From NCBI RefSeq assembly GCF_010747475.1, contig NZ_VSLZ01000006.1, positions 1-64,000 of the forward strand: a stretch of DNA of 64,000 nt, read 5' to 3'. Shown in pieces: positions 4,088-33,985 of this stretch (position 1 is its first letter; each line of letters opens with the position of its first letter). Position numbers and translations under genes: made by a program. The notes beneath the pieces were generated by a model, which saw nothing but the letters and a program-made list of their open reading frames with translations, was not told the DNA's origin and did no database searches. Origin of the DNA: Halorussus sp. MSC15.2 (GTDB taxonomy: Archaea > Halobacteriota > Halobacteria > Halobacteriales > Haladaptataceae).

Positions 4088-4450
4088 ATGGCACAATTCG
4101 GGAAAACGCTGGCGCTCGAATCGAACGGTGACCTCGAGGTCAACGAACTGAACACGCTCAGTTGGGTTCGCGGCCCCGAAGCCGTGGTACAAGACCTGAA
4201 AGTCACGCTGGCGACGAGACAGGGCGAAGACCCGTTCGACCCGGACCACGGACTCGACACGTTCGCCGCAACCGGTACCGCCGAGTCGCGGTTGAAACTC
4301 GAGATTGTGCAGACGCTCAACCGCGACGACCGAGTCAACAAAGTCGACGAGGTGAGGATAGACCGCGACCCCGACAGCCGAAAAACGTCCGCGACAGTAC
4401 AGGTTACGCTCGTGGACGGTAGCCAGCACGTGTTCGAGGTGGCACAATGA
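4088..4450 (+). CDS. Baseplate wedge protein, gp25/gpW family
   Basis: 120 residues. The ATG at 4088 is preferred over an in-frame GTG at 4076 because homologous wedge proteins begin near this point. The family pattern is clear: an internal VVQDLKVTLATRQGEDPFDPDHGLD stretch in which the E-D-P-F-D-P-D-x-G-L-D motif contains the acidic residues typical of gp25 lysozyme-like wedge proteins, then a region reading REIVQTLN-like and an RVxKVDEVRIDRDP strand. It forms part of the inner baseplate that initiates the sheath. The stop overlaps the next start (ATGA, 4447). Confidence 0.8.
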   Translation: MAQFGKTLALESNGDLEVNELNTLSWVRGPEAVVQDLKVTLATRQGEDPFDPDHGLDTFAATGTAESRLKLEIVQTLNRDDRVNKVDEVRIDRDPDSRKTSATVQVTLVDGSQHVFEVAQ

Positions 4451-5733: not shown

Positions 5734-5734
5734 C

Positions 5735-6349: not shown

Positions 6350-6351
6350 AC

Positions 6352-6920
6352 ATGAGCCAGCACGAACGACGCAACACAACAGCAGACGAACCGACCGAGG
6401 CGGCTACCGACGAATCCACCCCGGTAGCGGCCGACGAACCGACCACCGACGAACCGACGGCGGACGACGCCAAGTCGTTCGACCCCGACGCCGAAGGGAA
6501 AGCCGAGGCCAAGCGCCTGCTGAAGGCGGTCGAGGCCGACACCGAGCGCGCTCGCGCCGAGGCGGCGCTCGCCCGCAAGCGCGAGGGAGTCGAACGACTG
6601 AACCGACAGCTAGCCGACGCGAAACAGCGCCGCCAGCAGACGCGCGAACGCATCGAAGCGATGGAGTACACCGTCGAACGCCTCGAAGCCGCCGACGCCG
6701 ACCAGCTAGTCGTGCAGCGTCTCGAAGGCGGCGTCTCGCTGGGCGTTCCCGCCGACGAGCGCGAGGAGGTTCGTGAGGACCTCCGCGAGCGCACCCAGCA
6801 TCTCGAACAGCAACTCGAAACCGTCGACGCCGCATCGAGGCCCTCGAACGCGGCCTGCGGAAAGACCGCATCGCACTCGACTACCTGCAGAATCACACGG
6901 ACCTGGTGACTGACCAATGA
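6352..6920 (+). pseudogene. Acidic coiled-coil (prefoldin-like) tail protein with 3' frameshift
   Basis: As read, frame 1 ends at 6909 (185 residues) with a low-complexity tail unlike the rest. Residues about 55-160 are a long Glu/Arg/Ala coiled coil preceded by an acidic Thr/Asp-rich linker. At 6829-6831 the coding sense switches frame: from base 6831 the -1 frame reads RIEALERGLRKD and continues as good coiled coil to a TGA at 6918-6920. That TGA overlaps the ATG of the next gene (ATGA), as at most junctions upstream. A one-base deletion near 6830 (mutation or sequencing error) explains this best. Ribosomal slippage is possible but no classical slippery heptamer is seen. Without the frameshift the protein would have about 188 residues. 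Confidence 0.7.
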
Positions 6921-10821: not shown

Positions 10822-10833
10822 CGGAGGTCGGCC

Positions 10834-13215: not shown

Positions 13216-13246
13216 ACCGCTTTCTGACGTTTTACGAGACACGACA

Positions 13247-14557: not shown

Positions 14558-15831
14558 TGGACGCCGACGCGCTTCGACGGGTCGCTGACTGGTTTCACGA
14601 CCGGGAAGGCACCTTTCGTCCGCGAACCGGGGCGGTGTCCGCCATCGCGCGTAAACTCGACGTGGACGCGACGAGGGCGAGCAAACTGGTCGCCGGCCTG
14701 ACTGGCGACGACGTGGACCCCGTAATAGCGGTCCGCACGCACGAAGAGACGTTCGTCGGAATCCTCGACTACCGTGAAGGCGATGGCTGGTACGGTTACA
14801 CCGACTACCACGACCTGCGAGGCCCGCACCGCCGCGGCGTCTGCGCTCAGTGCGTCCACGAGGCGACGACCGACGAGGATGTTCGCACCGTCACCACCAC
14901 GAATGAGGACTGGGACGCTCTCGAAGCGGAACTCGGCGACCACTACGAGCGGGCACATCCGGACGTCGCGCCCGAAACTGTCAACGTCGAGACGGGCGCA
15001 ATTCTGCGCTCGCGCACGACCGTCGGTGGGAACCGGGTGTGGCACACCGGAAACGACGGTGCCGGGTCGGGATTCGGCGCGGCCAGCGTCGATGGCCTCG
15101 ACGGGGCGACGCTGAACCGCCGCCACTCCAGCGACGTGGACCGCCACCTCGACCTGAACCGACTCGGACTCCGGGCGTGGTATCGATTCGACCGCGGTTC
15201 GGGCGGGACGCTGTACGACTACGTGAACGTCGGTAGCAACCGAAACGGCGAACTCCGCGGTCCTACGTGGGTCTCGGGGCGAAACGGCGGGTCAGCGCTC
15301 TCGTTCGACGGGAGCGATGATTACGTGGCTCTCCGGGACTCTTACGCGACGAGCGGCGCACTCGACGAGTTCACCGTCTGTGTGTGGTATCGGTCCAGCG
15401 CGTCGAGTCCGACCTGGTCGTTCTACGACTTCGACCGCTCGGAGTACTTCCAGTTCGGCTTCGACAGCGGGGGCGGTGGCGACATCCAATTCGCCACGAC
15501 GGACCCGGGTAACTCGCAGGACGACATGTACACGTCCGGAACCTCGTGGAACGACGGAAGCTGGCACCTCGCCTGCGCAGTGTACGACGGGACGGACAAG
15601 TACATCTACGTGGACGGGTCCGTGGAAGGGGGCAAGTCCGGCCCGCACAACGGAGCGGCTATCGGCACGGGGGTGACTCGGTACGGCTACGTCGGTGCCG
15701 GCTCCGAGTCGAACTCGTTCGACGGTAACCGGAACAACAACAACTTCGAGGGCGACATCGACGAGGTTCGGTTCTACACGCGAGCGCTCTCGGGTAGCGA
15801 AATACGGGCCATCTACGACGGCGTCGCGTGA
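14557..15831 (+). CDS. Modular fibre B: same zinc-finger anchor, LamG tip
   Basis: 424 residues from ATG 14557 (TGATG coupling with fibre A). The first ~200 residues are closely related to fibre A over the anchor (GDGWYGYTDYHDLRGPHRRGV identical; C96-x2-C99 and H129-x4-H134). At DNA level the segment 14785-14840 is nearly identical to 13520-13575. The LamG tip (about 205-424) has diverged more: FDGSDDYVAL, SWHLACAVYDGTD, IDEVRFYTRALSGSEIRAI. This pattern of a conserved root and faster-evolving tip fits receptor-binding proteins. No signal peptide or membrane segment is present. Confidence 0.7.
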   Translation: MDADALRRVADWFHDREGTFRPRTGAVSAIARKLDVDATRASKLVAGLTGDDVDPVIAVRTHEETFVGILDYREGDGWYGYTDYHDLRGPHRRGVCAQCVHEATTDEDVRTVTTTNEDWDALEAELGDHYERAHPDVAPETVNVETGAILRSRTTVGGNRVWHTGNDGAGSGFGAASVDGLDGATLNRRHSSDVDRHLDLNRLGLRAWYRFDRGSGGTLYDYVNVGSNRNGELRGPTWVSGRNGGSALSFDGSDDYVALRDSYATSGALDEFTVCVWYRSSASSPTWSFYDFDRSEYFQFGFDSGGGGDIQFATTDPGNSQDDMYTSGTSWNDGSWHLACAVYDGTDKYIYVDGSVEGGKSGPHNGAAIGTGVTRYGYVGAGSESNSFDGNRNNNNFEGDIDEVRFYTRALSGSEIRAIYDGVA

Positions 15832-17811: not shown

Positions 17812-18294
17812 ATGGAATTTTACGAAGTCATGTTCCTCGCAGACGGCTGTACCGACGCGAAAGAAATCGAAGTCCGCGCGACCGGCGCAGCCGAACGGTG
17901 CGACGACCACTTCGCCGTGGTTTCGGCCACGATTCACGCCCGACCCAACCAGTTCGACGTGGAACTGAGCCGTCACACCGCAGTCGTGATGGTCATGGTC
18001 CCCAACACGTGGGACGATCCCCGCTTCGACGAATTCGCCGGGAAGATGGCTCGCCTCTACGGCGTTCCGATGATCGGCGCAACCCACCTGCAGGACGAGA
18101 CGCTCAACTTCAAGAGCGACGAGCAGGCCATCGAGAACTTCAAGGCCGACGCGCTTGGCCGCGACGCCTCCGACGAGTTCGAAGCTCAGCCCGGCGAGAC
18201 GCGCGCCGATAGAGCTGACGAGACTAGTCTAACCGAGGAGACCTTCACTGTCGAAGTAACCCCTGATTCCGATACTGATTATGACGAAGAGTAA
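17812..18294 (+). CDS. Unknown small protein in the fibre-glycan operon
   Basis: 160 residues. The start lies one base after the upstream stop. An N-terminal EFYEVMFLADGC stretch and a hydrophobic strand AVVMVMVPNTW (about 55-68) suggest a small alpha/beta fold. The last 45 residues are acidic and disordered. The gene overlaps the start of the GT4 gene by 14 bases (18281-18294), so the fibre genes and the glycosyltransferase are in one transcript. No family is recognised. Confidence 0.6.
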   Translation: MEFYEVMFLADGCTDAKEIEVRATGAAERCDDHFAVVSATIHARPNQFDVELSRHTAVVMVMVPNTWDDPRFDEFAGKMARLYGVPMIGATHLQDETLNFKSDEQAIENFKADALGRDASDEFEAQPGETRADRADETSLTEETFTVEVTPDSDTDYDEE

Positions 18295-19504
18295 GTACTC
18301 CGACCCGTTCAGCGACACTCGCCTCGGCCTAATCTACAGCGACCTCCGAACGCAGGGCGGTCAGGAGGAGGTCATCAGAATCCTGGCCGAAGCGCTCAAC
18401 GCGCCAATCTACACCCTCGACTACGAGCCCGAGAAGTTCGACAAGAGAGCCCAAGAGGTCTTCCGCCACCGGGTTCGAAAGATTCCGCCCGAGGAAGGTG
18501 TCGGCGACAGTCCAACCGACTTCTTCGAGCCGCAGGGTGCAGAGTACAAACAGATTGCTAGCCTCTCGAATCTCCGGGAAGCAGATACCGACCGCATCGT
18601 CTGCGACGGACTAATCGCTATCTCGGTCAAGGGAGCTGTGATGGCCGAACACGCAGGCATTCCATACATCACGTTCCTCGACCACCCCGGGAAGGTCATC
18701 ACGGACTACTTCTGGGAGACGCTCGACAACAAGGACCGCTGGCGCGACAAGCTCAAGTTCCTCAAGCGGCGCTGGGTCCACTCGCGCGCTTACAAACAGG
18801 CATGTCTCGATGGTGAGGGGATGATGGCCAACAGCGAGCGCACCAAGCAACTGGTCGTCGACGACTGGGGTTTCGACCCCGACGACATCGACGTGGTGTA
18901 CCCACCTATCGACACCGAGAAGTTCACGCCGGGCGAACCCGAGCGCGACGTTCTCGACCTGAACCGGTACTTCCTCGCCCCGCAGCGAGTCGAGGCGTAC
19001 AAGAACATCCACACGCTGGTCGAAGCCGCGAAACTCGCACAGGAACACCTCGTCATAGTCGGTACCGGAACGCTCGAATCCTACGTCCGGAAGGAAGCAC
19101 AGTACTCGAAGTACGTCCACTATCTCGGGTACGTGGACGACGACGTTCTTCGGGACCTCTACCGGGATGCAACCGCGACCATGCAGGGCGTCCTTCGGGA
19201 GGACTTCGGGATGGTCCCCGTCGAGAGCATGGCTTGCGGCACGCCGTGCCTCCTCCCGGGGTCAGGCGGGTTCAACGAGACGGTGGGGCCGGGCTACGAC
19301 GGCGACGTGGCCCCGACCCAGACCACGCCTCGCGGCCGACTTGTCGATCCCGAAGAGTTCGATCATTACGAGCTCGCCGGCGAGATGCAAGCATTCGATC
19401 CCGAAGAGTTCGACGCCGAGCATCTGGTCGAGACGGCCCAGCAGTACGACGTGGACAACTTCGTCTCGGGCATCGAGCGGAACCTCGACGCGCTCGACCT
19501 CTAA
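18281..19504 (+). CDS. Glycosyltransferase, GT4-like (GT-B fold)
   Basis: 407 residues, no signal peptide, so cytoplasmic. The C-terminal donor-binding half is clear: VDVVYPPIDTEKFTPG-like linker (about 205-220), a YKNIHTLVEAAKL region, LVIVGTGTLESYV, and REDFGMVPVESMACGTPCL (about 305-324), the E-x7-E nucleotide-sugar motif of GT4 enzymes. The N-terminus begins LGLIYSDLRTQGGQEEVIRIL, as in the GT4 acceptor domain. It most likely transfers a sugar from a nucleotide donor to a glycan or protein acceptor. The overlapping upstream gene and tail-fibre operon suggest fibre glycosylation or remodelling of host surface glycans. Confidence 0.85.
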   Translation: MTKSKYSDPFSDTRLGLIYSDLRTQGGQEEVIRILAEALNAPIYTLDYEPEKFDKRAQEVFRHRVRKIPPEEGVGDSPTDFFEPQGAEYKQIASLSNLREADTDRIVCDGLIAISVKGAVMAEHAGIPYITFLDHPGKVITDYFWETLDNKDRWRDKLKFLKRRWVHSRAYKQACLDGEGMMANSERTKQLVVDDWGFDPDDIDVVYPPIDTEKFTPGEPERDVLDLNRYFLAPQRVEAYKNIHTLVEAAKLAQEHLVIVGTGTLESYVRKEAQYSKYVHYLGYVDDDVLRDLYRDATATMQGVLREDFGMVPVESMACGTPCLLPGSGGFNETVGPGYDGDVAPTQTTPRGRLVDPEEFDHYELAGEMQAFDPEEFDAEHLVETAQQYDVDNFVSGIERNLDALDL

Positions 19505-19509
19505 TCGTC

Positions 19510-20646
19510 ATGGCCATCAACGTTCCCCGCTCGGCGAACATCGACCGCGTGGTGCTGGTCTCCATCGATACGTTTCGGTGGTACTACCACCAGCCGTACC
19601 GCGAGCTGTACCCTCCGGGCGTCTGGTATCGAGGAGTTGCACAGGCGACGTTCACGCCGACGTCGCATGCCTCGATGTTCACTGGACAGAACCCACCACG
19701 TCACGGCGTACTGAACTTCGGTGATACGTATCGGGGCGACCACCTCCTGAAGGCTACCGATAGCGTCTCGTACTCGAACGCTGTGCATCCCGCAGGCCCG
19801 TTCACGCGGGGGTTCGAGCAGGGGACGGACGCGTACAAGCAGGTGGCGTTCTCGGCGTGGCATCCCGACCACGAACGGGTCCCCCACTTCCGGTACGAGC
19901 ATCACGAGGACCATCGGGCGATTCTGGACGGTATCGCCAACCGGGACCTGACGTTCATCCACGACTGGCTCCTCCATGGGATTCTCGACCACACCGGAGA
20001 CTGGTATCCCGTTCCCGAGGAGGACGACCCTGCCGATTTCCACCGCTGTTACCAGCAGCAGGTCCGAGAGAGCGTCCGCACTCACGAAGCGATTTTGGAC
20101 GCGCTCAAGGAACATGGCCTCTACGAGAACACCCTGTTCGTCGTCTGGGGCGACCACGGTTGTGGGTTCCACGAACCGCCGGACGAAACCTACGGCAACG
20201 GAATCACGGTCAGTGAACCACACGCTCGCATCCCCATCGCGTTCTGTTCGCCCCAGTTCGACGAGACCACGGTGGACACCGAAACCAACGCCCGAAGCGT
20301 GGATATCGTTCCGACGCTCCAGACGCTCATGCACGACGCTGGACTTCGATTCGGTTCCCTCGAACATCCGATAGAAGGCGTTGACCTCACCGGGTTCGAC
20401 GGCGAACTAGCGGGCTACACGACCTCCTACAAGACGCCGCTGACGGGCGAAAACGACGGCGTCCGCACGCGGGAGTTCGCGCTGATCAACGACGAGGTGA
20501 AGGAGGTTCGACAGGTCCACGGAGGACTACACGCCGACTACAGTCTCGAGCGCGCCGTAAGTGCGCCCGAAACGGAATCGTGGCTGGAAGACCTCTACCA
20601 CGAGGTTCGCCAGCAACCGAGTAAGCTCATCATTAATGGAAAATGA
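19510..20646 (+). CDS. Sulfatase-like / phosphodiesterase (alkaline phosphatase superfamily), copy 1
   Basis: 378 residues. Metal-site motifs of the superfamily are visible: VVLVSIDTFRW (Asp at 20), a TPTSHASMFTGQNPPRHGV block (about 48-66) in which a Thr/Ser replaces the Cys of formylglycine sulfatases, and VVWGDHGCGF (about 209-218). A later VDIVPTLQTLM helix is also typical. The missing CxPxR motif argues against a sulfatase and for a phosphodiesterase, phosphotransferase or other hydrolase. There is no signal peptide. It is paralogous to the next gene and overlaps it by four bases (ATGA). Confidence 0.75.
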   Translation: MAINVPRSANIDRVVLVSIDTFRWYYHQPYRELYPPGVWYRGVAQATFTPTSHASMFTGQNPPRHGVLNFGDTYRGDHLLKATDSVSYSNAVHPAGPFTRGFEQGTDAYKQVAFSAWHPDHERVPHFRYEHHEDHRAILDGIANRDLTFIHDWLLHGILDHTGDWYPVPEEDDPADFHRCYQQQVRESVRTHEAILDALKEHGLYENTLFVVWGDHGCGFHEPPDETYGNGITVSEPHARIPIAFCSPQFDETTVDTETNARSVDIVPTLQTLMHDAGLRFGSLEHPIEGVDLTGFDGELAGYTTSYKTPLTGENDGVRTREFALINDEVKEVRQVHGGLHADYSLERAVSAPETESWLEDLYHEVRQQPSKLIINGK

Positions 20647-21830
20647 CATATAATGTTCCACTCACGAAAGATATCGAGCGCGTGGTTCTCATCACCGTGG
20701 ACTGTCTGCGGTGGGACTACCACGACGCGTACCGCGAGCTGTACCCCGATGGCGTCTGGTATCGAGGGACGCCGCAAGCGACGTACACGCCGACCAGCCA
20801 TACCTCGATGTTCACCGGACTTAACCCGCCCCGTCACGGGGTGTACGAGTTCGGTGACAGGTACAGTGGTCAAGATACGATATTTACTGCTACAGATAGT
20901 CTCAGCACGTCGGGACTTACCAACGAAGAAAATAATCTTTTGTTCGGGTTCGACGTCGACCAAGACCACGTTCCGTTCTCTGATTGGTTCCCCGAGGCAC
21001 TTGCCAATACGGATGCAACGGCTCGAACTCCCGAAGGTCTCGAAGAGTCGCCAGAGCAGATCGACCAACTGGAGGACTACGAACTGGCGTTCCTCCACGA
21101 TTGGATACTGCACGGTGTCGGAGTCGACGACGAGGACCCGTGGCACTACACTGCGGACCATGACGACCCGGCAAAGAACCACGAAAAGTATCAGAGCCAA
21201 CTTCAGATGAGCATCGCCGCACACGAGACTATTCTCGAGGAACTCAAAGCAAGAGACCTCTACGAGGATACGCTATTCGTGGTGTGGGGCGATCACGGAG
21301 AAGCTCTCCACGAAGCACCGCATCACATGTATACCCACGGTCACTTTCCTGAAGAAGCGATTGCGCGCGTCCCCATCGCGTTCTGTTCACCGCAGTTCGA
21401 CGAGACCACGGTGGACGCCGAAACCAACGCCAGAGGCATCGACATCGCTCCGACGCTCCAGACGCTCATGCGCGAAGCGGGGCTCCGATTCGACTCGATA
21501 AGCCACGACTTCGAAGGAGTCGACCTGACGACGTTCCGGGGAAAGCTGGCAGGCTACACCATGTCGATGCAAACCGCGAAAAACGGTCGCGAGGACTGTA
21601 TTCGAGATTCGACTCACTGTTTGTTGCAGAAAGATGATGGGAAGTTTACGCGGACGTTCACCGAACCGGACCCAGAAGACGGACATCGACTCGAAGAGCC
21701 GTGTGAAAATCCACTCGTCGAACAACGATTCGAGTCGTTATACGAATCGGTCCGGAACGGTCCGGAGAAGCTGATACTCAACCACGAACCAGATAGAGAA
21801 CAGCTACGAAATCTCGGTTATATAGACTAA
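20643..21830 (+). CDS. Sulfatase-like / phosphodiesterase (alkaline phosphatase superfamily), copy 2
   Basis: 395 residues, ATGA-coupled to copy 1 and sharing its motifs: VVLITVDCLRWDYHDAYRELYP, TPTSHTSMFTGLNPPRHGV, VVWGDHGEALHEAP and IDIAPTLQTLM. Runs of 15-20 identical bases remain (for example around 20229 and 21373), so it arose by tandem duplication. The middle (20870-21060) is AT-richer and diverges, and probably forms the substrate-specific insert. It ends in LRNLGYID, a common end of archaeal sulfatase-like proteins. The substrate is unknown. Confidence 0.75.
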   Translation: MTYNVPLTKDIERVVLITVDCLRWDYHDAYRELYPDGVWYRGTPQATYTPTSHTSMFTGLNPPRHGVYEFGDRYSGQDTIFTATDSLSTSGLTNEENNLLFGFDVDQDHVPFSDWFPEALANTDATARTPEGLEESPEQIDQLEDYELAFLHDWILHGVGVDDEDPWHYTADHDDPAKNHEKYQSQLQMSIAAHETILEELKARDLYEDTLFVVWGDHGEALHEAPHHMYTHGHFPEEAIARVPIAFCSPQFDETTVDAETNARGIDIAPTLQTLMREAGLRFDSISHDFEGVDLTTFRGKLAGYTMSMQTAKNGREDCIRDSTHCLLQKDDGKFTRTFTEPDPEDGHRLEEPCENPLVEQRFESLYESVRNGPEKLILNHEPDREQLRNLGYID

Positions 21831-21864
21831 TTCAGAAGTCAAACCATAAACAGCGAATTCACCC

Positions 21865-22812
21865 ATGACACCACTCGACACCAACATCACGCTCTGCATG
21901 CTGACCAAAGACGAAGAAGACAACATCGTCTCGACGCTGGAATCGGCGTCACCCATCTTCGAGGAACTCGTCCTCGTAGATGCCTCGGAGGACGATACCG
22001 TGGCAGTCGCCGAGGAGTGGTGCGAAGAACACGCCGTGGACTTCGACGTGATCGAGTCCAGCGAGCGCGAATACCTCCTCGAAGGACCGGGCACGCAACG
22101 ACGTCGTGCCGAAGACCTCGCTACCCGCGAGTACACCATGCAGGTCGGCGCAGACGTGGAGGTCGAAATCCACGACGAACAGTGGTTCACTCGTGAGTTC
22201 GACCACTACGGCTACGTCCACACTCGCGTCAAGCCCTCGGGCCGAGTAGACCGCGACTATCGGCTCTACTGTCCGGACCCCGACATCGACTTCGACCACC
22301 GAAAGCCGGGGATGATTCCGCAATGGCGCGGGTTGGTCCACGAAGAGATTCGAACCGAGTACGGCCACCACATGCAGGAGGTCTACCGCGTGGCAGAAGC
22401 ACCGATGACTCATCACCAGACGCGGCACGGTGCGATGGACGTTTCGAACGTCGAGGAAGGACACCAGCGGATTCACGACGAGCGATTCGGCGGAAACACT
22501 GGTCGCGCGCTCAAGAAACAGCACTACCTGATGCATCGCCAGCTCGCGTCCGACCGCCAGCCCGCGTATCTCTCCGAGCCGTACCACGAGTACTACCGCG
22601 AGAACCGCGAACTCGTCATCCAGCACTGGGAAGAGATCCGCGAGGAGTACACACTCCCGCAGTTCGCTACTCGTGAATGGGACGTTCGGGACTTCGGACA
22701 GGGTGAGAAACGCTACGGGCCGTGGCGGCTCGACGAGGGAGAGCCGCTGTACAAGCCCCGGCGACTCTCTGCCGGAGAGTACGTCGTGCAGAAGCTTACT
22801 GGTGAGTTCTGA
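21865..22812 (+). CDS. Glycosyltransferase family 2-like protein A
   Basis: 315 residues. The N-terminus ITLCMLTKDEEDNIVSTLES, then EELVLVDASEDDTVAVAEEW and MQVGADVEVEI, match the GT-A Rossmann start, the nucleotide-binding Asp and a DxD-like acidic pair of GT2 enzymes. The C-terminal half is charged, with many His and Tyr residues (AEAPMTHHQTRHG). No membrane segment is present. It follows the two hydrolase genes after 34 bases and precedes another GT2-like gene by three bases. Confidence 0.75.
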   Translation: MTPLDTNITLCMLTKDEEDNIVSTLESASPIFEELVLVDASEDDTVAVAEEWCEEHAVDFDVIESSEREYLLEGPGTQRRRAEDLATREYTMQVGADVEVEIHDEQWFTREFDHYGYVHTRVKPSGRVDRDYRLYCPDPDIDFDHRKPGMIPQWRGLVHEEIRTEYGHHMQEVYRVAEAPMTHHQTRHGAMDVSNVEEGHQRIHDERFGGNTGRALKKQHYLMHRQLASDRQPAYLSEPYHEYYRENRELVIQHWEEIREEYTLPQFATREWDVRDFGQGEKRYGPWRLDEGEPLYKPRRLSAGEYVVQKLTGEF

Positions 22813-22815
22813 CCT

Positions 22816-23676
22816 ATGCCTAAGACTGCCGTCTGTGTGACCGCACTTAATCGCCCAGAGTATACCGAACGGGTCATCGAATCGCTCGAAGCTCAACCCG
22901 ACAAAGACGAAGTAGATTGGTGGCTGTTTCAGGGTGGTGCAGTCAACCGATACAGTGGGCTTCGTCACGCCGAAGATGAGACGATAGAGCGCAGTCTCGC
23001 GGTCCTGATGGACGCTGATTTACCGAATAAGCATCTCAGAGTGAACGACGAGAACATCGGAATCGCTCTTCAACGGGACCGCATATTCCACCTGCTGGAC
23101 GAAGAGTACGACCGGCTCATTCACCTCGAAGGCGACATCGTGGTCGGGAAGTACTGGCTTCGGCTTTCACGGAAACTGATGGACCAGTTTCCGTTCCATA
23201 TCGGTCGTATGTACCGTCTCCACGACCCGTCCGAACACGATATAAATCCGCGCGAATGCCTCGACGAGGTTTTGATTACCGATCACGGCAACCACGTCGC
23301 GGACTGTATCACGAAAACCGTCTGGGAGGAGATTCGAGATGATTGGCACGATTTCGTCGATATAATTCGAGGATACGACTTTCCCCGTACCGAGGTTCCT
23401 AGAGAGGAACTGGCAGAACGCTTCGTTCCGGGCGTTTACGGCGACGACCATGCCCTGAGTCACATCGCTCGTAAGAACGACGTCAATCGCGTCATCCCTC
23501 GAGTGAGCCGAGCCAGCGACATTGGAGCGCTTGGAATGACGCATACCCCCGAGAACCGAGCTGGAACAGCCCGCGGCAACGAAGGTGACCTCACCTACGA
23601 AGCAGATGCCGATATTGAGGAGTTTACTGTCTATGACCGTGCATTCATTCGCGATGAAGACGACTGGAGACTCTGA
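22816..23676 (+). CDS. Glycosyltransferase family 2-like protein B
   Basis: 286 residues. The start TAVCVTALNRPEYTERVIESLEAQ is typical of GT2 enzymes; RLIHLEGDIVVGKYWL supplies the acidic DxD-like site (about 95-105). The rest resembles processive or single-addition sugar transferases with an aspartate-rich loop (GVYGDDHALSHIA). It is the last gene of the long + strand operon; a hairpin followed by T residues lies about 300 bases downstream. Acceptor and donor cannot be read from sequence. Confidence 0.65.
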   Translation: MPKTAVCVTALNRPEYTERVIESLEAQPDKDEVDWWLFQGGAVNRYSGLRHAEDETIERSLAVLMDADLPNKHLRVNDENIGIALQRDRIFHLLDEEYDRLIHLEGDIVVGKYWLRLSRKLMDQFPFHIGRMYRLHDPSEHDINPRECLDEVLITDHGNHVADCITKTVWEEIRDDWHDFVDIIRGYDFPRTEVPREELAERFVPGVYGDDHALSHIARKNDVNRVIPRVSRASDIGALGMTHTPENRAGTARGNEGDLTYEADADIEEFTVYDRAFIRDEDDWRL

Positions 23677-24036: not shown

Positions 24037-25905
24037 TTAGTGCTGTTCTCGCCAGTACTTCGCCAACAGTGTCGCTAATCCGACAGTAGTAGCTTGGATG
24101 CCGAACCCAGGGACCGTCGAACTGGAGCGGCCTCCGTTCGCAGTTGGTGACGAAGTGGGAGAACGTGAAGTCGTTTCAGTCGTCGTAACTGCCGAGGAGG
24201 CGGTAGTCGTCGGATTTTCTGTTGTCGGCGTAGACGTCTTGGTTCGGAGTTGAACCAGGTAATCGGCCCACCCAGCGTCCCGCTGGAAATCGACGTGATC
24301 GACGACGCGTCCATCGACGAGAACGTCCGCTTCGATGTCGTCGACCACAGGGACGCCACGGATTCGTGCTGACGTCGCCACGTCGAACACCGACCGCTCG
24401 ACGTATATCGACGTCCGTGGATCGTCGGGGTTCTCTCCGACGAACCACCGCCAACTGCTCTCCTCGTTCGCCACGGGATACGAAACTCCCTCCGAGAGTA
24501 TCGGCTCGTCGTCAGGGTTACCGACGCTGTAGCGTTCGACTGATTGGCCGTCCGAATTGAGGAGTACGAGCTCTGAACACCGGAACGTGAGGGCACGACT
24601 CTTCTCCTTCGACGTCTCGGGGTTGATTTCGTATTCCTCGACCGACTTGTTGAAGTCGAAGGCGAGTTCGGCGTACGTCGGGAGTTTCTGGAGCGAGTTC
24701 TCGGTGATTATAGAGTCGATGTAGTCCCAGACGGGGGATTTCGTACCGTCAGGCCGGACGAGCCAGAATCCCTTCCCGCCCGAGGTGTCGTAGATCGCCC
24801 AGTAGAGCATGTATGGAACGCCCCACTCGAGCGACGTGTGCGTAATCATTTTCGTGATCTGTGCTGCCTTCTCGTTTCCGACTTTTTCGAACGGAAGGCC
24901 GTACTCGCCGACGAAGACGCTCTTCGAGGGGACGGGAAGCACCGACTTCACGTACTCTGATGGCTCGGGCGCGTGCTCGTTCACGAAATCGAGTATCTCG
25001 CGGAACTTCGCGGGCGCGTCGTTGGGATTCCACCGACGGAACGCTCGCCACATCTCCCGATAGGAGTTGTGCGAGACGAGATCCACGTTCGTCTCGGGGA
25101 CGACCGTGTTGATGACGCGCGTCTGTCCCTGCATCGCCCGGAGGACCATGTTGACTTCGGCGGCGTGGAGGACCGTTACGTCGCTCTCGATCTCGGACCG
25201 AGCGCGCTCGACGCCGCGTTGTCGGGCGTTTAGCCACTGAATCATCCCGTCGATGGCCGTCTGGGTCGGTTCCAGGTCGTCGGACCGCAACTCCCCCGCA
25301 GAAATCTCTTCGCGTTTCTTCCACGGAATGATCGCCCAGTCGCCTTGCCAGTGCTGGAGGACGAACTCCTTGCCGGTCCCTCGATACGTTTCGAGCAGAT
25401 GTTTCGTGAGTTCGTAGAAACTTTGTTCTTCCTGACGGAGTTGGTCGTCGGAGATGCCCCGGATGAAATAATGCTTGTAGTCATCGCCGTAACCCCCATC
25501 GACGTGCGCGTACGCTTCGAGAACGTAGGTCCGGAAATCGCGTTGGAACAGTTCGCGGAAGTAGTTCGACTCGACGACATCGACCATACTGTCGAACGAC
25601 GGGGGCCAGTCGCTATTGTAGGGATACTTGTTGTGGGGGTCGTCTCCCGCGACGTGGGTGAGCCAGACTTTGATGACGCGCGAACCGAGGTTTCGAATCT
25701 GCTTCGCGCCCTCGTTCAGAAAGTTCTCGTCGGTGAGGTGGTAATCGCCATCGACATGAGTGACCCCAACTCTGTCCTTCAGTGGCCGAGTTCCGGGCAA
25801 TTCGTTTCCGCGCGAATCGCCAAGAGCCCGTGAACTAAAGAGAGGTGTGCTGAGGGCGCTCGCGCCGACGCCTCCGAGAAACGCCCTCCTCGTGCTTCGT
25901 TTCAT
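24037..25905 (-). CDS. Secreted GH-A clan-like glycosidase with PGF-CTERM anchor (intact copy)
   Basis: 622 residues. A twin-arginine signal begins STRRAFLGGVGASAL. Residues about 40-400 look like a TIM barrel of clan GH-A: RNLGSRVIKVWL early, AAEVN at about 250 (possible acid/base Glu), VFVGEYGLPFE at about 333 (possible nucleophile Glu) and LYWAIYDTSGGKGFW. Residues about 420-575 are a beta-rich domain (FDFNKSVEEYEINP, ALTFRCSELVLL, ARIRGVPVVDDIEADVLVDG) that also occurs in the two GH99-like genes nearby. A Thr-rich linker and PGFGIQATTVGLATLLAKYW end form a PGF-CTERM sorting signal, so the protein is exported and anchored by archaeosortase. A near-identical broken copy lies at 29944-31815. 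Substrate unknown. Confidence 0.7.
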   Translation of the reverse strand: MKRSTRRAFLGGVGASALSTPLFSSRALGDSRGNELPGTRPLKDRVGVTHVDGDYHLTDENFLNEGAKQIRNLGSRVIKVWLTHVAGDDPHNKYPYNSDWPPSFDSMVDVVESNYFRELFQRDFRTYVLEAYAHVDGGYGDDYKHYFIRGISDDQLRQEEQSFYELTKHLLETYRGTGKEFVLQHWQGDWAIIPWKKREEISAGELRSDDLEPTQTAIDGMIQWLNARQRGVERARSEIESDVTVLHAAEVNMVLRAMQGQTRVINTVVPETNVDLVSHNSYREMWRAFRRWNPNDAPAKFREILDFVNEHAPEPSEYVKSVLPVPSKSVFVGEYGLPFEKVGNEKAAQITKMITHTSLEWGVPYMLYWAIYDTSGGKGFWLVRPDGTKSPVWDYIDSIITENSLQKLPTYAELAFDFNKSVEEYEINPETSKEKSRALTFRCSELVLLNSDGQSVERYSVGNPDDEPILSEGVSYPVANEESSWRWFVGENPDDPRTSIYVERSVFDVATSARIRGVPVVDDIEADVLVDGRVVDHVDFQRDAGWADYLVQLRTKTSTPTTENPTTTASSAVTTTETTSRSPTSSPTANGGRSSSTVPGFGIQATTVGLATLLAKYWREQH

Positions 25906-25988
25906 TGATTCCCGTTTCGGAGAATGGCTCTATAAATCTTGTGAGGGGATAAGTTATAAACAAATGAGTTGCAACTGCATACGTACTG
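25905..25988. promoter_or_regulatory. Divergent TATA-box pair for two surface enzymes
   Basis: A tataaa at 25931-25936, read as TTTATA on the minus strand, lies about 26-31 bases upstream of the ATG at 25905. A ttataaa at 25954-25960 lies about 29-35 bases upstream of the + strand ATG at 25989. These distances fit leaderless transcripts, which are common in haloarchaea, and no ribosome binding site precedes either start. Confidence 0.55.
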
Positions 25989-27713
25989 ATGAGAAGTCAA
26001 CCTAGCAGACGACGTTTTCTCGGAGCCACCAGCGCTACTCTTCTATTTGGGAGTGTCGATGGATTTGACTATCGAAGTAAACGGAGAGAAGAGCGTAATA
26101 GACGTGATCAAACATTAAATCCGAATTTAGATGTTGGGGCCGTATACATTCCATTTCTGGGTGATAAATGGGGTAAGTGCATTGACCACCATCCGGCAAT
26201 TGGTCAGTACAGCATCACAGAGACAGACGTTATCAATCATCACGTCAATCAAATGCTACAGAATGGCATTTCGACCGTGCTATTCAATTTTGGCGCGAAC
26301 AAACGGGATTTCGATCGGTTCCTGAAGTTCCGAAAAGCTAAACGTACTAACGACATCGCTATCGAAATTTTCTGGGTCATCCATCGTATATTCCAGCGTA
26401 ATCACGATTTCGCCCCGTTTCTCAAGTTTGTCCGAGACGAGATGGTGTCGTTACCTAACTATAAGACCGTCAACGACCGACCCGTGGTCAACTTTTGGGC
26501 GCCAGGGTATCTCGCCTTGAACGAGGATGCAACTCGTCGAATCGAAAATGAATGGGGAGGGATTGACAAATTATTCAATCACATACGAAACGAACTGACT
26601 GTAGACGGTAACGAACCGTTCCTCGTCGGTGGAATTGGTAGTTGGGCCTTTGAGGGTTTTCCAAACGCCATCGAACAGTTTGGCCGACAGTTCGACGCGA
26701 TTACCTCGTGGGTCGGCAATCCAAAAGCCGGATACAATCCATGGGAGAGGCACCGGAAGAAAGTTGGAGAGATTTTCCGGCGCTCGTTCTGGTACGCTAT
26801 CGAAAACGACCTCGAGTTCGTGCCGATGGTGTTTCCGGGATTCGATGACCGCCCCAACGACTGTTGGGGCGACGGTCGACACGTACCTCGATCGCCTAAA
26901 CATCTCGCTGAGCTCTTTAATCTTGCAAAGAAATACCGGACAGTCGATAGGACGTACGTCGCCACGTGGAACGGGTGGCCTGAGGGTCATCAAATCGAAC
27001 CCGGTACCTTCAGCGGCCAGGACTACGGCACGGCGTATCTCGATGTCGTGAAAGAGGCGGCCACGAGCGACCTGCCGCCGTTCCGAATCGAGTCGTTCGT
27101 CCCAGTCACGCTCGCGTTCAACAAAACGGTCGCAGAGCACGAAGTGAATCCGGACAAATCACCCGAGAACAGTCGTGACCTGGCGTTCAGATGCTCGGAA
27201 CTTGAACTCCTGGCCGCCGATGGAAAGAGCGTCGCTACGTATAACGTGGGTCAGCCAGCGGCAGAACCCCACTTCACGGAAGGCGTGTACAATACGAACC
27301 AGAACGACCAGCGGAGTACCCGATGGTTGGGCGGGCCGACCACACGCACCCAGATGTACTTCGAGCACGAATTAGTCGAGAAAGCGGCCGAACTCCGGGT
27401 GCGCGGAGTGCCCATCACCGACGACATCGCTGCCGACGTACTTGTCGATAGAACGGAAATGGACCATCTCGAGTTTGAACGAAACGGGTGGCAGAACTAT
27501 CTCGCCGATTTGCGAGCGACTACCACGACCGCGACAACCCCACCAACGACTTCTGAATCAGTACCGACAGCGAAGACAACCCAACAGCAAGCGATGGCTG
27601 CCGAAGCGACGACGACCACGTCGGTGGATTCACCGGGGTTCGGGCTGCTGACGGGGCTAGGCGCGTTGACCCTTGGTGCGGGTCAGTATCTTGCCAGTGA
27701 GTCGGACGACTAG
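25989..27713 (+). CDS. Secreted GH99/WbsX-like protein with shared C-terminal domain
   Basis: 574 residues. The Tat signal is SRRRFLGATSATLLFG (residues 6-21). Residues about 45-360 resemble the WbsX/GH99-like barrel: GAVYIPFLGDKWGK, a long set of alternating strands and helices, and YVATWNGWPEGHQIEPG (about 322-338) followed by DYGTAYLDVV, the strongest family signature. Residues about 363-515 are the same beta domain as in the neighbouring glycosidases (LAFNKTVAEHEVNP, LAFRCSELELL, LRVRGVPITDDIAADVLVD). A Thr-rich linker and an SPGFGLLTGLGALTLG end form a PGF-CTERM-like anchor. GH99-like enzymes act on mannosides or related glycans, but the precise activity is unknown. Confidence 0.7.
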   Translation: MRSQPSRRRFLGATSATLLFGSVDGFDYRSKRREERNRRDQTLNPNLDVGAVYIPFLGDKWGKCIDHHPAIGQYSITETDVINHHVNQMLQNGISTVLFNFGANKRDFDRFLKFRKAKRTNDIAIEIFWVIHRIFQRNHDFAPFLKFVRDEMVSLPNYKTVNDRPVVNFWAPGYLALNEDATRRIENEWGGIDKLFNHIRNELTVDGNEPFLVGGIGSWAFEGFPNAIEQFGRQFDAITSWVGNPKAGYNPWERHRKKVGEIFRRSFWYAIENDLEFVPMVFPGFDDRPNDCWGDGRHVPRSPKHLAELFNLAKKYRTVDRTYVATWNGWPEGHQIEPGTFSGQDYGTAYLDVVKEAATSDLPPFRIESFVPVTLAFNKTVAEHEVNPDKSPENSRDLAFRCSELELLAADGKSVATYNVGQPAAEPHFTEGVYNTNQNDQRSTRWLGGPTTRTQMYFEHELVEKAAELRVRGVPITDDIAADVLVDRTEMDHLEFERNGWQNYLADLRATTTTATTPPTTSESVPTAKTTQQQAMAAEATTTTSVDSPGFGLLTGLGALTLGAGQYLASESDD

Positions 27714-27957
27714 CACTTCGCCGCCGCATTACCGGAAAGTCGTGAAAGATAATGGTAGTACTATCTTAGTATTATTCTCGCCAGGCCTTCGCCACCAACG
27801 TCGCTAACCCAACTTCGCTCACCTCCAATTCCAACGTGGAGTTCTTACGGCGCTTCATAATTCACAGAAAATTGTTTGAAGTCTGGTTGTTCGGCGTTTT
27901 CACCGAGAGGTTCCAAATCCCCACTATTCAAAAAATACATATATTGAAGGAATAATT

Positions 27958-27962
27958 GGAGG
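27958..27962 (+). promoter_or_regulatory. Strong Shine-Dalgarno of the 27971 lipoprotein gene
   Basis: ggagg eight bases before ATG 27971. It supports this start and contrasts with the leaderless-looking neighbours. An AT-rich tract with tacatatatt lies just upstream (27936-27945). Confidence 0.6.
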
Positions 27963-27970
27963 ATTAGCCG

Positions 27971-29899
27971 ATGACGAATAATAGGACCTCCCAGTCACGG
28001 CGACGATTTTTAGCCTCAGTTGCGGCGACGACGATACTGAATGGGTGTCAATCAGGGAGAGAACCAGATTCGAAGCAGACGACTTCGGCGGTAACTTCTA
28101 CCCGGCCTACGCAGACGGTAGAAACGGCTTCCGACTGGACGACAACGACAGTCCAACCCGAATTCACGCTCACAACCGACACAAGCAGTAAGGCGGATAC
28201 AAAAGAACTTGACGTAGCTGGTTCACTGGCCCACGCAGACGGGATTGATACACTACAAGTTCACCTCGAAACAGGTGCCGAACGTCATCTAACGTTCTCG
28301 GGAACGGAGCGTGCCAAGTACGCAGTCTCGTTTACGGTTAACGGCGGACAACGTTACGGCGGCAAGGTCAGCTACCGCACCGAGTCTGGCAAGGAGTACG
28401 AGACCCGATTCGTTACGGAGTACGTCCCCCAAGAGGCGGTTTTCTCGAATCAATCTCCGCTCGTCGGTGCTCACTACTATCCGTGGTACGGGCCGGGCCG
28501 CCACTGGGATTCCCACATCGAAACACCGGCATTAGGGGAATACAGTGCACGAAACCCGGAAGTCATCTCTCAACACGTCGAGTGGGCGACGACCCATGGA
28601 ATCGATTTCTTTTCAATGAGTTGGTGGGGGCAAGGGTCGTGGGAAGACGTTACGATAAAAGACTACGTTCTACCGACCGTTCCAGCGACGGAAGTCGACT
28701 TTCATATTCTCTACGAGCCGTTCGGAACGCTCGATGGCGAGCCAGGGTCTATCGACCTCGATAATCCGTCGAATCGCCGTCAATTAGTCGAAGACTTCGC
28801 ATACCTAGATCGAACGTACTTCGGTCGAGAGAATTATCTTCAAATCGACGATAAGCCCGTCGTCTTTATGTATACCACGGGTAGTTTTCACGGGGATATC
28901 GAATCAGCACTGGCGGCGGTTCGAGATACCGTCTCAGAGGGCGTTTACCTAATCGCAGATTTTGTAGACTGGCGTCGCCCACCACTTCCGAGACACCGCC
29001 AACTCATGCGGTCGTTCGATGCTGTCTCCAGCTATAATATGTATAAACCCTACGAGGACATTAATCGCAATTTCGCCCAGCGGATGGCGAGATTCTATCC
29101 CTCGTGGTTGCTCGCGGCGAAGGAATCAGATGTCGATTTTCTCCCGATGGTCACTCCCGGCTTCAACAACACAGATGTTCCGGACACGGACAAACCGGTG
29201 TTAAAACGGAGTTTCTCTCAGTTTGAGACGGTCTGTGAGTTGACGAAGCAGTATCTCGACCCACGACTGGACGCAGTGTACGTGACGTCATTCAACGAGT
29301 GGCACGAGAACACCCAAATCGAACCCGGAGGCGAATACGGAACCACGTACCTCGACGTTGTCAAGAACCAGTTCGACAAGCGTCCGAACCACGCGATTGC
29401 GAACTTCGTACAGCTCGAAATCGAATTCAACAAAACGGTCGCCGAATCAGAGGTGAACTCGAACGTCTCCCCGGAGAACGCCCGCGAGCTAGCCTTTGCC
29501 TTGTTCGAAATTGAGTTATTCATCGACGGAAAGTCGATTGAGACGTACTCGGTCGGCGATGTGAAAGACGAACCGGAGTTCACGCAGGGTGCATATGACC
29601 CAGTGTCTCACGCCAATCGGACTCAGCGATGGACTGGTGGTCCTACGGGGCGACTGTCGATGTACTTCGACGAGAAACTGCTAGACGCCACTGAACTTCG
29701 CATACGTGGAGTCCCAGTCAAAGACGGTCTTTCAGGGACGGTCTTTATCGAGGGAATGCCAGTCGGGAAACTCTCATTTGGGACGCGACGATACAAAGAG
29801 TACGAAGTCTCACTGAAGATAGCGGACCAGCCATCTTCGAAGAATCAACAATCACGTTCGGCGTGGTATCCTCGGCATCAGACGGGAGCAGGTGATTGA
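27971..29899 (+). CDS. Tat-exported GH99/WbsX-like lipoprotein
   Basis: 642 residues. The signal SRRRFLASVAATTILNGC carries twin Arg and a lipobox with Cys26, so it should be lipid-anchored. A Thr/Ser linker and an Ig-like beta domain (about 75-150) precede a GH99/WbsX-like barrel: VGAHYYPWYGPG (about 165-176), IDFFSMSWWGQGSW, and VTSFNEWHENTQIEPG (about 437-452) followed by YGTTYLDVV. The shared C-terminal domain follows (IEFNKTVAESEVN, LRIRGVPVKDGLSGTVFIEG). There is no PGF-CTERM, as expected for a lipoprotein. It is paralogous to the preceding gene although anchored differently. Confidence 0.7.
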   Translation: MTNNRTSQSRRRFLASVAATTILNGCQSGREPDSKQTTSAVTSTRPTQTVETASDWTTTTVQPEFTLTTDTSSKADTKELDVAGSLAHADGIDTLQVHLETGAERHLTFSGTERAKYAVSFTVNGGQRYGGKVSYRTESGKEYETRFVTEYVPQEAVFSNQSPLVGAHYYPWYGPGRHWDSHIETPALGEYSARNPEVISQHVEWATTHGIDFFSMSWWGQGSWEDVTIKDYVLPTVPATEVDFHILYEPFGTLDGEPGSIDLDNPSNRRQLVEDFAYLDRTYFGRENYLQIDDKPVVFMYTTGSFHGDIESALAAVRDTVSEGVYLIADFVDWRRPPLPRHRQLMRSFDAVSSYNMYKPYEDINRNFAQRMARFYPSWLLAAKESDVDFLPMVTPGFNNTDVPDTDKPVLKRSFSQFETVCELTKQYLDPRLDAVYVTSFNEWHENTQIEPGGEYGTTYLDVVKNQFDKRPNHAIANFVQLEIEFNKTVAESEVNSNVSPENARELAFALFEIELFIDGKSIETYSVGDVKDEPEFTQGAYDPVSHANRTQRWTGGPTGRLSMYFDEKLLDATELRIRGVPVKDGLSGTVFIEGMPVGKLSFGTRRYKEYEVSLKIADQPSSKNQQSRSAWYPRHQTGAGD

Positions 29900-29943: not shown

Positions 29944-31815
29944 TTATCGCTGTTCGTGCCAGTGTTTCGCCAATACTATCATTAACCCGGCGGTAGCGGC
30001 CGAGATACCGAATCCAGGGGCTGCCGGGCTGGGTCGACTTCCGTTCGCAGTTCGTGACGAAGTAGGGGAACGCCGAGTGGTTCCGGTCGTTGAAGTAACT
30101 GCCGAGGAGGCGGCAGTAGTCGGGTTTTCTATTGTCGACGTAGGTGTCTTGGTTTGGAGTTGAACCACGTAATCGGCCCACCCAGCGTCCCGCTGAAAAT
30201 CGACGTGGTCGACGACGCGTCCACCGACGAGTACGTCCGCCTCGATATCGTTTTTAATGGGGACGCCACGAATTCGTGCCGCCGCCACTTTATCGAACAC
30301 CGACCGCTCGACGTATATCGACGTCCGTGGATCGTCGGGGTTCTCTCCGACGAACCACCGCCAACTGCGCTTTTCGTTCGCCACGGGATACGAAACTCCC
30401 TCCGAGAGCATCGGCTCGTCGTCAGGGTTACCGACGCTGTAGCGTTCGACTGATTGGCCGTCCGAATCGAGGAGGACGAGTTCTGAACACCGGAACGTGA
30501 GGGCACGACTCCTCTCCTTCGACGTCTCGGGGTTGATTTCGTGCTCCTCGGCTGACTTGTTGAAGTCGAGGACGAGTTCGGCGTACGTCGGGAGTTTCTG
30601 GAGCGAGTTCTCGGTGATTATAGAGTCGAAGTAGTCCCAGACCGGCGATTTCGTGCCGTCAGGCCGGACGAGCCAGTATCCCTTCCCGCCCGAGGTGTCG
30701 TAGATCGCCCAGTAGAGCGTGTACGGAACGCCCCATTCGAGCGACGTGTGCGTAATCATTTTCGTGATTTGTGCCGCCTTCTCGTTCCCCACCTTCTCGA
30801 ACGGAAACCCGTACTCACCGACGAAGACGTTCTTCGAGGGCACGGGAAGCACCGATTCCACGTACTGTGATGGATTGGGGGTGTACTCGTTCACGAAATC
30901 GAGTATCTCGCGGAACTTCGCTGGCGCATCGTTGGGATTCCATCGACGGAGTGCTCGCCACATCTCCCGATAGGAGTTGTGCGAGACGAGATCCACGTTC
31001 GTCACGGGGACGACCGTGTTGATGACCCGGGTCTGTCCCTGCATCGCCCGGAGGACCATGTTGACTTCGGCGGCGTGGAGGACCGTCACGTCGCTCTCGA
31101 TCTCGGACCGGGCGCGCTCGACACCGCGTTGTCTGGCGTTCAACCACTGAATCATCCCGTCGATGGCGGTCTGGGTCGGTTCTAGGTCGTCGGACCGCAA
31201 CTTCCCCGCAGAAATCTCATTGCGTTTCTTCCACGGAATAATCGCCTAATCGCCCTGCCAATGCTGGAGGACGAACTCCTTGCCCGTTCCCCGATACGTT
31301 TCGAGAAGATGTTTCGTGAACTCGTAGAAACCTCGTTCTTCTTGCCGGAGTTGCTCGTCGGAGATGCCACGGATGAAATAATGCTTGTTCCCATCACCGT
31401 AGCCTTCCTCGATGTACACATACGCTTCGAGGACGTAGGTGCGGAAATCGCGTTGGAACAGTTCCCGGAAGTACGGCGACTCTGCTACTTCGACCATACT
31501 GTCGAACGATGCAGGCCAGTCGCTATTGTAGGGATACTTGTTGTGGGGGTCGTCCCCCGAGACATGGTGGAGCCAGACTTTGATGACGCGCGAGCCGAGG
31601 TTTCGAATCTGCTTGGCGCCCTCGTTCAGGGAGTTCTCGTCGGTCAGGTGGTAATCGCCATCGACGTGGGTAACACCAACTTTGTCCTCCAAATGGCGAG
31701 TTCCGGGCAACTCATTTCCGTGCGTATCGCCAAGAGAACGCGAACTAAATAGAGGTTTACTGAGGGCGTTCGCCCCGATACCTCCAAGAAATGCCCTCCT
31801 CGTGCTTTGTTTTAT
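29944..31815 (-). pseudogene. Inactivated duplicate of the GH-A-like glycosidase
   Basis: The minus strand matches the 24037-25905 gene nearly base for base over its whole length. The start codon is destroyed: the position of ATG is ATA (31815-31813), with an in-frame stop just upstream. The Trp codon after QGD has become TAG (31248-31246; TGG in the intact copy). The rest remains open to the PGF-CTERM end, so decay is recent. Downstream starts at internal Met codons could give a 418-residue fragment without a signal peptide. The two copies flank the two GH99-like genes in direct orientation. Confidence 0.85.
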
Positions 31816-32988: not shown

Positions 32989-33640
32989 TTATTGCTGTTT
33001 ACACCAGTATTTCGTAAGTACTGCAGCAAGTCCGGTGGTAGCGGTCGTTAGGTCGAACCCCGGGAACCGACTTCGCAGTTTGGTTTGCTCTGGTCATCCG
33101 CGATGTAGTGCGATGACCCGTGACCGTCGTCTTAGTCGTCGGTTCGGCAGCATACGGGTGGCAGTTGTCGTGCTAGTTGTCTGCGATTCGGTACCGGTAG
33201 TCGTAGATTCAATACTGGTCGTCGATGAGGTCGTGGTACTGGTCGTCGAAGTAGTCGGTAGCGTCTTCTGGAATTCCCGGATGGCCTCGAGGTACACCGT
33301 CCCGTAGTCCGGGCCATCGAAGCGGCCAGTTTCGACCTGATAGCCCTCGGTCCAGTCGTTGAACGTCGTCAGATTAATCCTGACAGTCGTTCGGTACTCC
33401 TCGGCGAGTCGGAGCAAGTCCGTCAGGTGAGACACTGAACAGGGAACGTGTCTATCGTGGCCCCAACATTCGTTGTGCCGATAATCTGGAGCGGGTCGTT
33501 CTGGACGGACGAGCACAAGGGGCAGGCCTCACGGGGGTTCGGCAGGAACGAGGATGTAACCCGAATCTTCGTGACGAAAGCGGCGTTCGACGGTGGGCGG
33601 ACGCTCCACCTCCACGGTCGGCCACGCGAAGCGGGCATCG
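32989..33640 (-). pseudogene. Remnant of a GH99-like PGF-CTERM protein
   Basis: The minus-strand frame ending near 33094 contains ECWGHDRHVPCSVSHLTDLL and TFNDWTEGYQVETGRFDGPD followed by YGTVYLEAI, which match the CWGDGRHVP and TWNGWPEGHQIEPG regions of the intact GH99-like gene. A Thr-rich linker follows. After a frameshift the minus strand reads PGFDLTTATTGLAAVLTKYW and stops at 32989, a PGF-CTERM end matching the GH-A-like copy. Upstream of about 33520 the frame is lost, so only the last third of a gene remains. Confidence 0.7.
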
Positions 33641-33985
33641 AAACGACCGTGCGCCTGAACGGTCAGCCGGTCGATTCGGTTCTCGGAAAATCGCTGGCGA
33701 GACTAGTCGGTATCTTTCGTAGACGAGACGACGACAGCAATTAATGACACGCACCGCTCGAACTCGGAGCCGACGACGGCAACCATCGAATGTGACGCGA
33801 CCGAAATGCAGCGAACGCGTCGAATACGGCGGCGGGGCAAACGTCCGGGCGGACCACGACCACGCCAGCATCGACCAACAGCGAGAACGTTCGCGGACTC
33901 GGTCCACTCGCGGCGCTCGCTGGCCTCGGTACAGTAGCGTCTTGGCGATACCAGAGTTCTCGCGACGAGTACAACTGAAGACGGC
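33500..33985 (+). pseudogene. Opposite-strand remnant of the shared C-terminal domain and anchor
   Basis: The + strand encodes VTRIFVTKAAFDGGRTLHLH then GRPREAGIETTVRLNGQPVD (about 33560-33680), which aligns with the YVERSVFD...ARIRGVPVVDDIEADVLVDGRVVD part of the intact glycosidases. After frameshifts a Thr-rich linker (33840-33870) leads to NVRGLGPLAALAGLGTVASW and a stop near 33978, resembling a C-terminal membrane anchor. It runs opposite to the remnant at 32989-33640 and partly overlaps its decayed 5' end. Confidence 0.55.

Follow-up and report, generated by a model that had tools for sequence, protein, structure and literature searches.

The C-termini of unrelated glycosidase-like barrels in Halorussus sp. 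MSC15.2 share a domain of about 150 residues, which we describe here from a 64,000-nucleotide stretch of its genome (contig NZ_VSLZ01000006.1, positions 1 to 64,000; hereafter the window). Our computational analysis shows that this domain is a homologous, haloarchaea-restricted and extracytoplasmic beta-sandwich found on several protein architectures that act, or probably act, on glycans. We read it as a mobile, haloarchaea-specific, extracellular accessory module resembling a carbohydrate-binding module (CBM), an interpretation that we regard as evenly poised. While accessory modules of carbohydrate-active enzymes are a known kind, the domain family itself is new. Since accessory modules indicate where a glycan-active enzyme works, one that is confined to haloarchaea and mounted on unrelated barrels would offer a handle on how these archaea recognise or remodel polysaccharides of their surface or environment, a subject that has been little mapped.

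An earlier reading of the sequence (the original prediction) had placed the domain in three proteins, which we confirm at their coordinates. GHA1 (24037-25905, minus strand) is a putatively Tat (twin-arginine translocation)-exported protein in which a barrel of the clan GH-A type (glycoside hydrolase clan A; residues ~34-406) is followed by the shared domain (24238-24687, minus strand; residues 407-556), a Thr-rich stalk and a PGF-CTERM-like tail. WbsX1 (25989-27713, plus strand) has the same predicted export route, stalk and tail, and combines a GH99/GH71-superfamily barrel having a G-x-x-E dyad with the domain (27075-27524, plus strand; residues 363-512). WbsX2 (27971-29899, plus strand) is a lipoprotein with the lipobox NGC, a small N-terminal domain, a GH99 barrel with an intact E-x-x-E dyad, and the shared domain near the protein end (29384-29827, plus strand; residues 472-619). 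In pairwise BLASTP comparisons of the domains alone, GHA1 and WbsX1 are 46% identical over 148 residues (expect value, E, 8e-46), WbsX1 and WbsX2 44% identical (E 3e-43), and GHA1 and WbsX2 36% identical (E 9e-27), with every pair scoring 35 to 64 standard deviations higher than the average over 1000 shuffles. Chance similarity of motifs is thereby ruled out. The GHA1 barrel, however, has no significant BLASTP similarity to the WbsX barrels (best E 1.1), while WbsX1 and WbsX2 do have related barrels (28% identity, E 1e-19), and the sharing between GHA and WbsX proteins is therefore confined to the C-terminus. These alignments, in which the GH-A-like and GH99-like C-termini are significantly similar, agree with the prediction of one domain of about 150 residues common to all three.

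The sequence motifs originally quoted for the domain are exact in WbsX1 but degraded in GHA1, which reads FNKSVEEYEINP and LTFRCSELVL, and in WbsX2, which reads LAFALFEIEL and LRIRGVPVKDGLSGTVFIE. The strongest landmark is one that had not been listed, R.LAF ... Y(D/N)(I/V)G ... EP ... G.Y ... (W/T)RW(F/L)GG ... T, and the conserved residues, in WbsX1 domain numbering, are R39, G64, G75, R88 and W89, together with D/N62 and E69. The ratio of nonsynonymous to synonymous substitution rates (dN/dS) is about 0.1 for barrel and domain alike, with dS partly saturated, indicating that both are under purifying selection. The suggestion that the domain joins two different glycosidase folds holds in so far as the two families are unrelated; by family or by model, both are (beta/alpha)8 barrels.

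The domain was detected in 33 of 392 Halobacteriales genomes and 19 of 95 genera. Every match in a phylum-wide sample of 393 genomes, for which the number outside Halobacteriales is not listed, fell inside Halobacteriales, and the plasmid matches were haloarchaeal only (Halobaculum rubrum, Natribaculum luteum, Halorubrum salinarum and Halovenus salina), while phage records contained none. In everything searched, the domain is thus found only in haloarchaea. Four kinds of architecture contain it. In three of them it is joined to a GH99-like barrel, a GHA barrel or a right-handed beta-helix (Pfam Beta_helix, E 1e-13 to 1e-14), and the fourth comprises short lipoproteins lacking a catalytic domain, in which it sometimes occurs in tandem. 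Furthermore, the pairing of a GHA with a GH99-like carrier recurs in another family, since the Halobaculum rubrum plasmid NZ_CP082285 encodes one of each 2.3 kb apart. A viral origin of the domain was considered and rejected: neither WbsX1 nor GHA1 has a relative in IMG/VR, phage records hold no match, and the BFVD structure database returned nothing at E <= 0.001 (best 0.0048, Foldseek). A description of the domain was not found in the open literature searched, the coverage of which was limited.

Nearly all carriers with a complete N-terminus have a Tat-type RR motif by simple pattern matching, in many cases followed by a lipobox, and others have a PGF-CTERM. In the tails of GHA1 and WbsX1, a PGF motif, a hydrophobic segment and a polar end can be read directly from the sequence after a Thr/Ser-rich stretch; these tails give weak matches, below cut-off, to the tail parts of models of the S-layer (surface-layer) glycoprotein and of PGF-CTERM-anchored proteins, while no dedicated PGF-CTERM profile scored. 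The domain is the last folded domain whether the anchor is N-terminal (lipobox) or C-terminal (PGF-CTERM). In lipoproteins the chain ends with it, well away from the membrane, whereas in PGF-CTERM carriers it is followed by a Thr-rich stalk of 65-89 residues and the anchor, and so lies near the membrane. The original proposal of a common location therefore stands for the outside of the cell, as signalled by the RR motif, lipobox or PGF-CTERM, but is contradicted for a set position with respect to the membrane. For the same reason, a function that depends on membrane distance appears unlikely, and a membrane spacer is disfavoured.

How the domain came to be attached to different barrels was traced in both families. 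All 25 of the 25 GH99-like barrels scoring >240 bits in the 392 Halobacteriales genomes adjoin the domain when match coordinates are compared, although the use of domain-bearing proteins to build the barrel profile biases this count. The tree of GH99-like barrels contains two clades at 100/100 support. Nearly all members of the WbsX2 clade carry the domain, while the other is a small clade of domain-less proteins, with the WbsX1 type nested among them as the only carriers. Since the WbsX1 type lies among domain-less barrels, away from the WbsX2 clade, independent attachment to the two would be the simplest reading of the tree, repeated loss being the alternative. The groups also differ in their dyads, which are E-x-x-E in the WbsX2 clade, D-x-x-E in four domain-less WbsX1 relatives and G-x-x-E in the WbsX1 type. 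Domain-less haloarchaeal proteins of the GH99/GH71 superfamily with a D-x-x-E dyad were observed in the analysed stretches L191 (5672-6835), L181, L187 and L188. The D-x-x-E dyad is reported to be typical of GH71 (PMC12394665).

With the GHA barrel as query, 104 relatives were returned from 84,980 species, and 80 of them were kept. These are mostly from Planctomycetota, but also from Verrucomicrobiota, Bacteroidota, Hydrogenedentes and others, including one Asgard archaeon. Among these 80 of 104, the domain is present on 3/3 haloarchaeal members and on 0/77 others, most of which end right after the barrel, and it was therefore most likely added to the GHA barrel inside haloarchaea. The order-wide survey of 392 genomes found the domain on six of eight GHA barrels, two haloarchaeal members being without it. 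The barrel family itself has no match in Pfam, NCBIfam or PDB sequences. Our analysis thus exposes a widespread family of the clan GH-A type (Planctomycetota, Verrucomicrobiota, Bacteroidota and others) that Pfam and NCBIfam do not model, and which may represent a new glycoside hydrolase family.

A second, divergent GHA/WbsX pair lies at 229.8-233.1 kb of the contig (C6), ~200 kb from the pair in the window, and is adjoined by a domain-less WbsX-like gene. The two WbsX1-type genes (window 25989-27713; stretch L191 9533-11272) share 60-79% identity in the mid-barrel region. From about nucleotide 900 to 1500, over ~600 nucleotides of coding sequence that include the domain, identity rises to 96-100%. 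This near-identical stretch has the look of a gene-conversion-like tract, which would have covered the domain together with the barrel end.

The AlphaFold2 model of the domain, built on 27060-27530 of the window, is an all-beta sandwich with a predicted local distance difference test (pLDDT) score of 94.8. A two-domain model of GHA1, comprising barrel and domain, reached a pLDDT of 92.8 and a predicted template modelling (pTM) score of 0.92. The high pTM reads as a defined and rigid arrangement, consistent with the absence of a linker, in which the domain would be packed on the barrel without a flexible connection. We suggest that this sandwich of ~150 residues was joined several times to exported proteins that act, or probably act, on glycans; it also stands alone in lipoproteins. 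In the barrel proteins the final helix of the barrel would be its direct packing partner, and a putative conserved polar and aromatic patch (Arg39, Asp/Asn62, Glu69, Arg88 and Trp89 of the WbsX1 domain), through which we infer that the domain binds glycan, might hold a polymer of the cell surface or its surroundings. Such binding could retain the barrel at its substrate in both kinds of anchored protein, those held by an N-terminal lipid and those on a C-terminal PGF-CTERM stalk. A common ligand such as a surface glycan, as originally put forward, is plausible.

Several observations weigh against a CBM-like module. Profile and structure searches identified no CBM family, fold or ligand for the domain. 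Foldseek returned nothing from the PDB at E <= 0.001 (best 0.028), and the best VIA-align rows reached only Z 4.8, mixing PLAT/C2-like chains with a CBM22 tandem; Z values under 5 are within the background for beta-sandwiches, and a new fold is not thereby shown. No Pfam CBM family scored above its cut-off in 40 members. CBM60 gave a weak match in 3/40 of these (best E 0.0012, over ~40 residues where placed) and about 17 bits in whole genomes against a cut-off of 28.2; being below cut-off and little better than expected over 40 scans, a CBM60 identity was rejected and kept as a lead only. The gene neighbourhoods of carriers are likewise mixed: some loci lie beside glycosyltransferases, epimerases and sulfatases, as in the window, but many are without glycan genes, and neighbourhood was set aside as too mixed to serve as a functional clue. 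Finally, a domain that packs tightly on its barrel with no linker would also be consistent with a purely structural role. An overlooked known domain was rejected as well, as nothing credible emerged from Pfam at E <= 1 (window proteins and 40 members), NCBIfam (window proteins) or PDB profile searches. In line with the original prediction, the domain shared by these unrelated barrels can thus be called undescribed, the C-termini having no Pfam or NCBIfam model, no solved sequence relative and no confident fold match.

The strongest rival, which we consider rather less probable, is that the domain is a stabilising beta-sandwich packed on the barrel and without a ligand of its own, as has been proposed for GH71. 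In the fungal GH71 alpha-1,3-glucanase AnGH71C, a conserved C-terminal beta-sandwich whose role is unknown is intimately packed on a GH99-related (beta/alpha)8 barrel, no polysaccharide binding was observable, and the protein could not be produced without the sandwich (PMC12394665). The linker-less junction, the confident joint model of GHA1 and the 25/25 GH99-like barrels that adjoin the domain (with the bias of the carrier-built profile) all suit this explanation. On the other hand, the haloarchaeal domain is also found on beta-helices and alone in lipoproteins, where there is no barrel to stabilise; the barrel to be stabilised differs between hosts; and the domain is absent from the GHA barrels of bacteria and of two haloarchaea. 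Its presence on unrelated barrels, on beta-helices and alone, and its restriction to haloarchaea, also set it apart from the GH71 sandwich. 

A related argument, which we judge unlikely, holds that the domain does not behave as a module at all, but was fused a few times long ago and then passed on with its barrel, so that the sharing carries no functional message. This account is compatible with a structural role, and is favoured by the domain tree, in which the architecture labels need 7 changes compared with 15.6 in shuffles and the starred branches force only one change per group. It has to contend, however, with at least four architectures that carry the domain, with the placement of the WbsX1 barrel among domain-less barrels at full support, and with the gene-conversion-like tract that appears to have copied the domain and the barrel end between two loci. 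It is also conceivable, but in our estimation the least probable of these alternatives, that the binding partner of the domain is the S-layer or some other envelope protein, so that the enzymes are held in the pseudo-periplasmic space and the domain serves as an attachment or spacer instead of a sugar binder. While the carriers do look exported and anchored, and the family occurs solely in organisms whose envelope has an S-layer, the carriers already own an anchor, the membrane-distal position in lipoproteins and membrane-proximal one in PGF-CTERM proteins fit no single spacer role, and with only about 8% of the Halobacteriales sampled possessing it, the domain is not linked to an envelope component common to all.

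Returning to the CBM-like reading, the domain resembles CBM60/CBM36 and CBM22-type modules in its size, its all-beta sandwich and its attachment to unrelated glycan-active enzymes. The CBM22 tandem aligned with Z 4.8 over 102 residues (root-mean-square deviation 3.4), tied with unrelated PLAT/C2-like rows. The domain differs from these modules in lacking a match above a curated cut-off, a known ligand site and a flexible linker. PLAT/LH2 and C2-like domains of lipoxygenases, lipoprotein lipase and bacterial phospholipase C make up most of the top VIA-align rows (Z 4.2-4.8) but have no sequence similarity to the domain, and a PLAT/C2-like fold was rejected as these values are under 5. Haloarchaeal ether lipids make lipid binding of the PLAT/C2 type doubtful.

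The catalytic residues of the attached barrels, which the original prediction did not consider, are perhaps the most testable part of this work. The GHA1 model is an eight-strand (beta/alpha)8 barrel that superimposes on clan GH-A enzymes with VIA-align Z values of 20-23 over ~300 residues (22.9 for GH1, 20.8 for GH39 PslG and 20.8 for GH164; GH5 and GH53 belong to the same clan), even though no PDB sequence is detectably related to it. In the clan GH-A layout, the Glu after beta-7 is the nucleophile and the Glu after beta-4 the acid/base. The GHA barrels have a Glu after beta-7 in 76/76 sequences (E301 of the GHA1 model) and an invariant Glu after beta-5. After beta-4, a Glu is found in 73/76, and the remaining three, namely GHA1 (HWQGDW), its second-locus copy and the Halobaculum member, have Gln. 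GHA1 thus has the barrel and the beta-7 Glu of the clan but, with roles assigned by position, would lack its acid/base.

The two WbsX proteins differ in a comparable way. WbsX2 exceeds the gathering score of Pfam Glyco_hydro_99 (54.7 bits against 33), and its barrel matches GH99 endo-alpha-mannosidases and mannanases such as BtGH99, BxGH99 and OpGH99A (PDB E 1e-12). Its E-x-x-E dyad (NEWHE) is intact, where SFNEWHENTQIEP pairs with SFNEWHEGTQIEP in the alignment to solved GH99 chains, and we infer that WbsX2 is a competent GH99-type alpha-glycan hydrolase. WbsX1 falls below the same gathering score (23.1 bits against 33) and lacks the first dyad glutamate: it reads TWNGWPEGHQIEP, with Gly at the position of the first acid, as is the case throughout the three-member WbsX1-type clade. 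In GH71, substitution of either dyad acid cost 200- to 15,000-fold activity (PMC12394665). GH99 has been annotated in haloarchaea before, in PGAP product names and as an extracellular protein of a glycosaminoglycan-degrading haloarchaeon (PMC13260240). The divergent pair of GHA1 and WbsX1 is thus conserved (dN/dS about 0.1), yet each member is without one canonical catalytic glutamate, and it seems reasonable to suggest that the pair mainly binds, or else cleaves by a modified mechanism. A further and doubtful step would be to regard GHA1 and WbsX1 as a conserved pair of pseudo-glycosidases, in which unrelated barrels sharing a glycan-recognition domain on PGF-CTERM stalks work as a two-part surface lectin or receptor instead of as hydrolases.

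The original count of three copies proved too low. The Halorussus genome contains seven matches to the domain, all on this one contig: those of GHA1, WbsX1 and WbsX2, one in the GHA1 paralogue GHA2, a remnant, and two in the second GHA/WbsX pair. GHA2 (29944-31815, minus strand) is a pseudogene: a single in-frame TAG interrupts it (HWQGD*), and it lacks a start codon where GHA1 has its own. It is otherwise 77-96% identical to GHA1 over its length, and it too reads Gln after beta-4. Its copy of the domain (30148-30597, minus strand) is 87% identical to that of GHA1. The degenerate domain remnant lies at 33478-33681 (plus strand; profile match E 2.3e-9), and the 3' end of a WbsX-like barrel with an NDWTE dyad, running into a Thr/Ser-rich tail, at 33094-33516 (minus strand). 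Two related protease-like proteins matching the phage family PHROG_20754 (32034-32939 and 34590-35900) flank these degenerate glycosidase remnants. Beside the second pair, at 7036-7596 of stretch L191, fused fragments were seen by eye to resemble a window sulfatase (20643-21830) and glycosyltransferase (21865-22812), indicating that the duplication extended beyond the glycosidases.

In the window, glycosyltransferases and two sulfatase/phosphodiesterase-like proteins (18281-23676) directly precede the glycosidases. Upstream of these glycan genes, the region 4447-8362 encodes Baseplate J-like and other baseplate proteins (PHROG 6, E 6e-51; PHROG 1160, E 3e-35) and reads as the putative tail module of a head-tail provirus or of a contractile particle. 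It is followed at 8365-15831 by four consecutive proteins with Laminin_G_3 (concanavalin-like) domains, possibly tail-fibre or adhesin-like.

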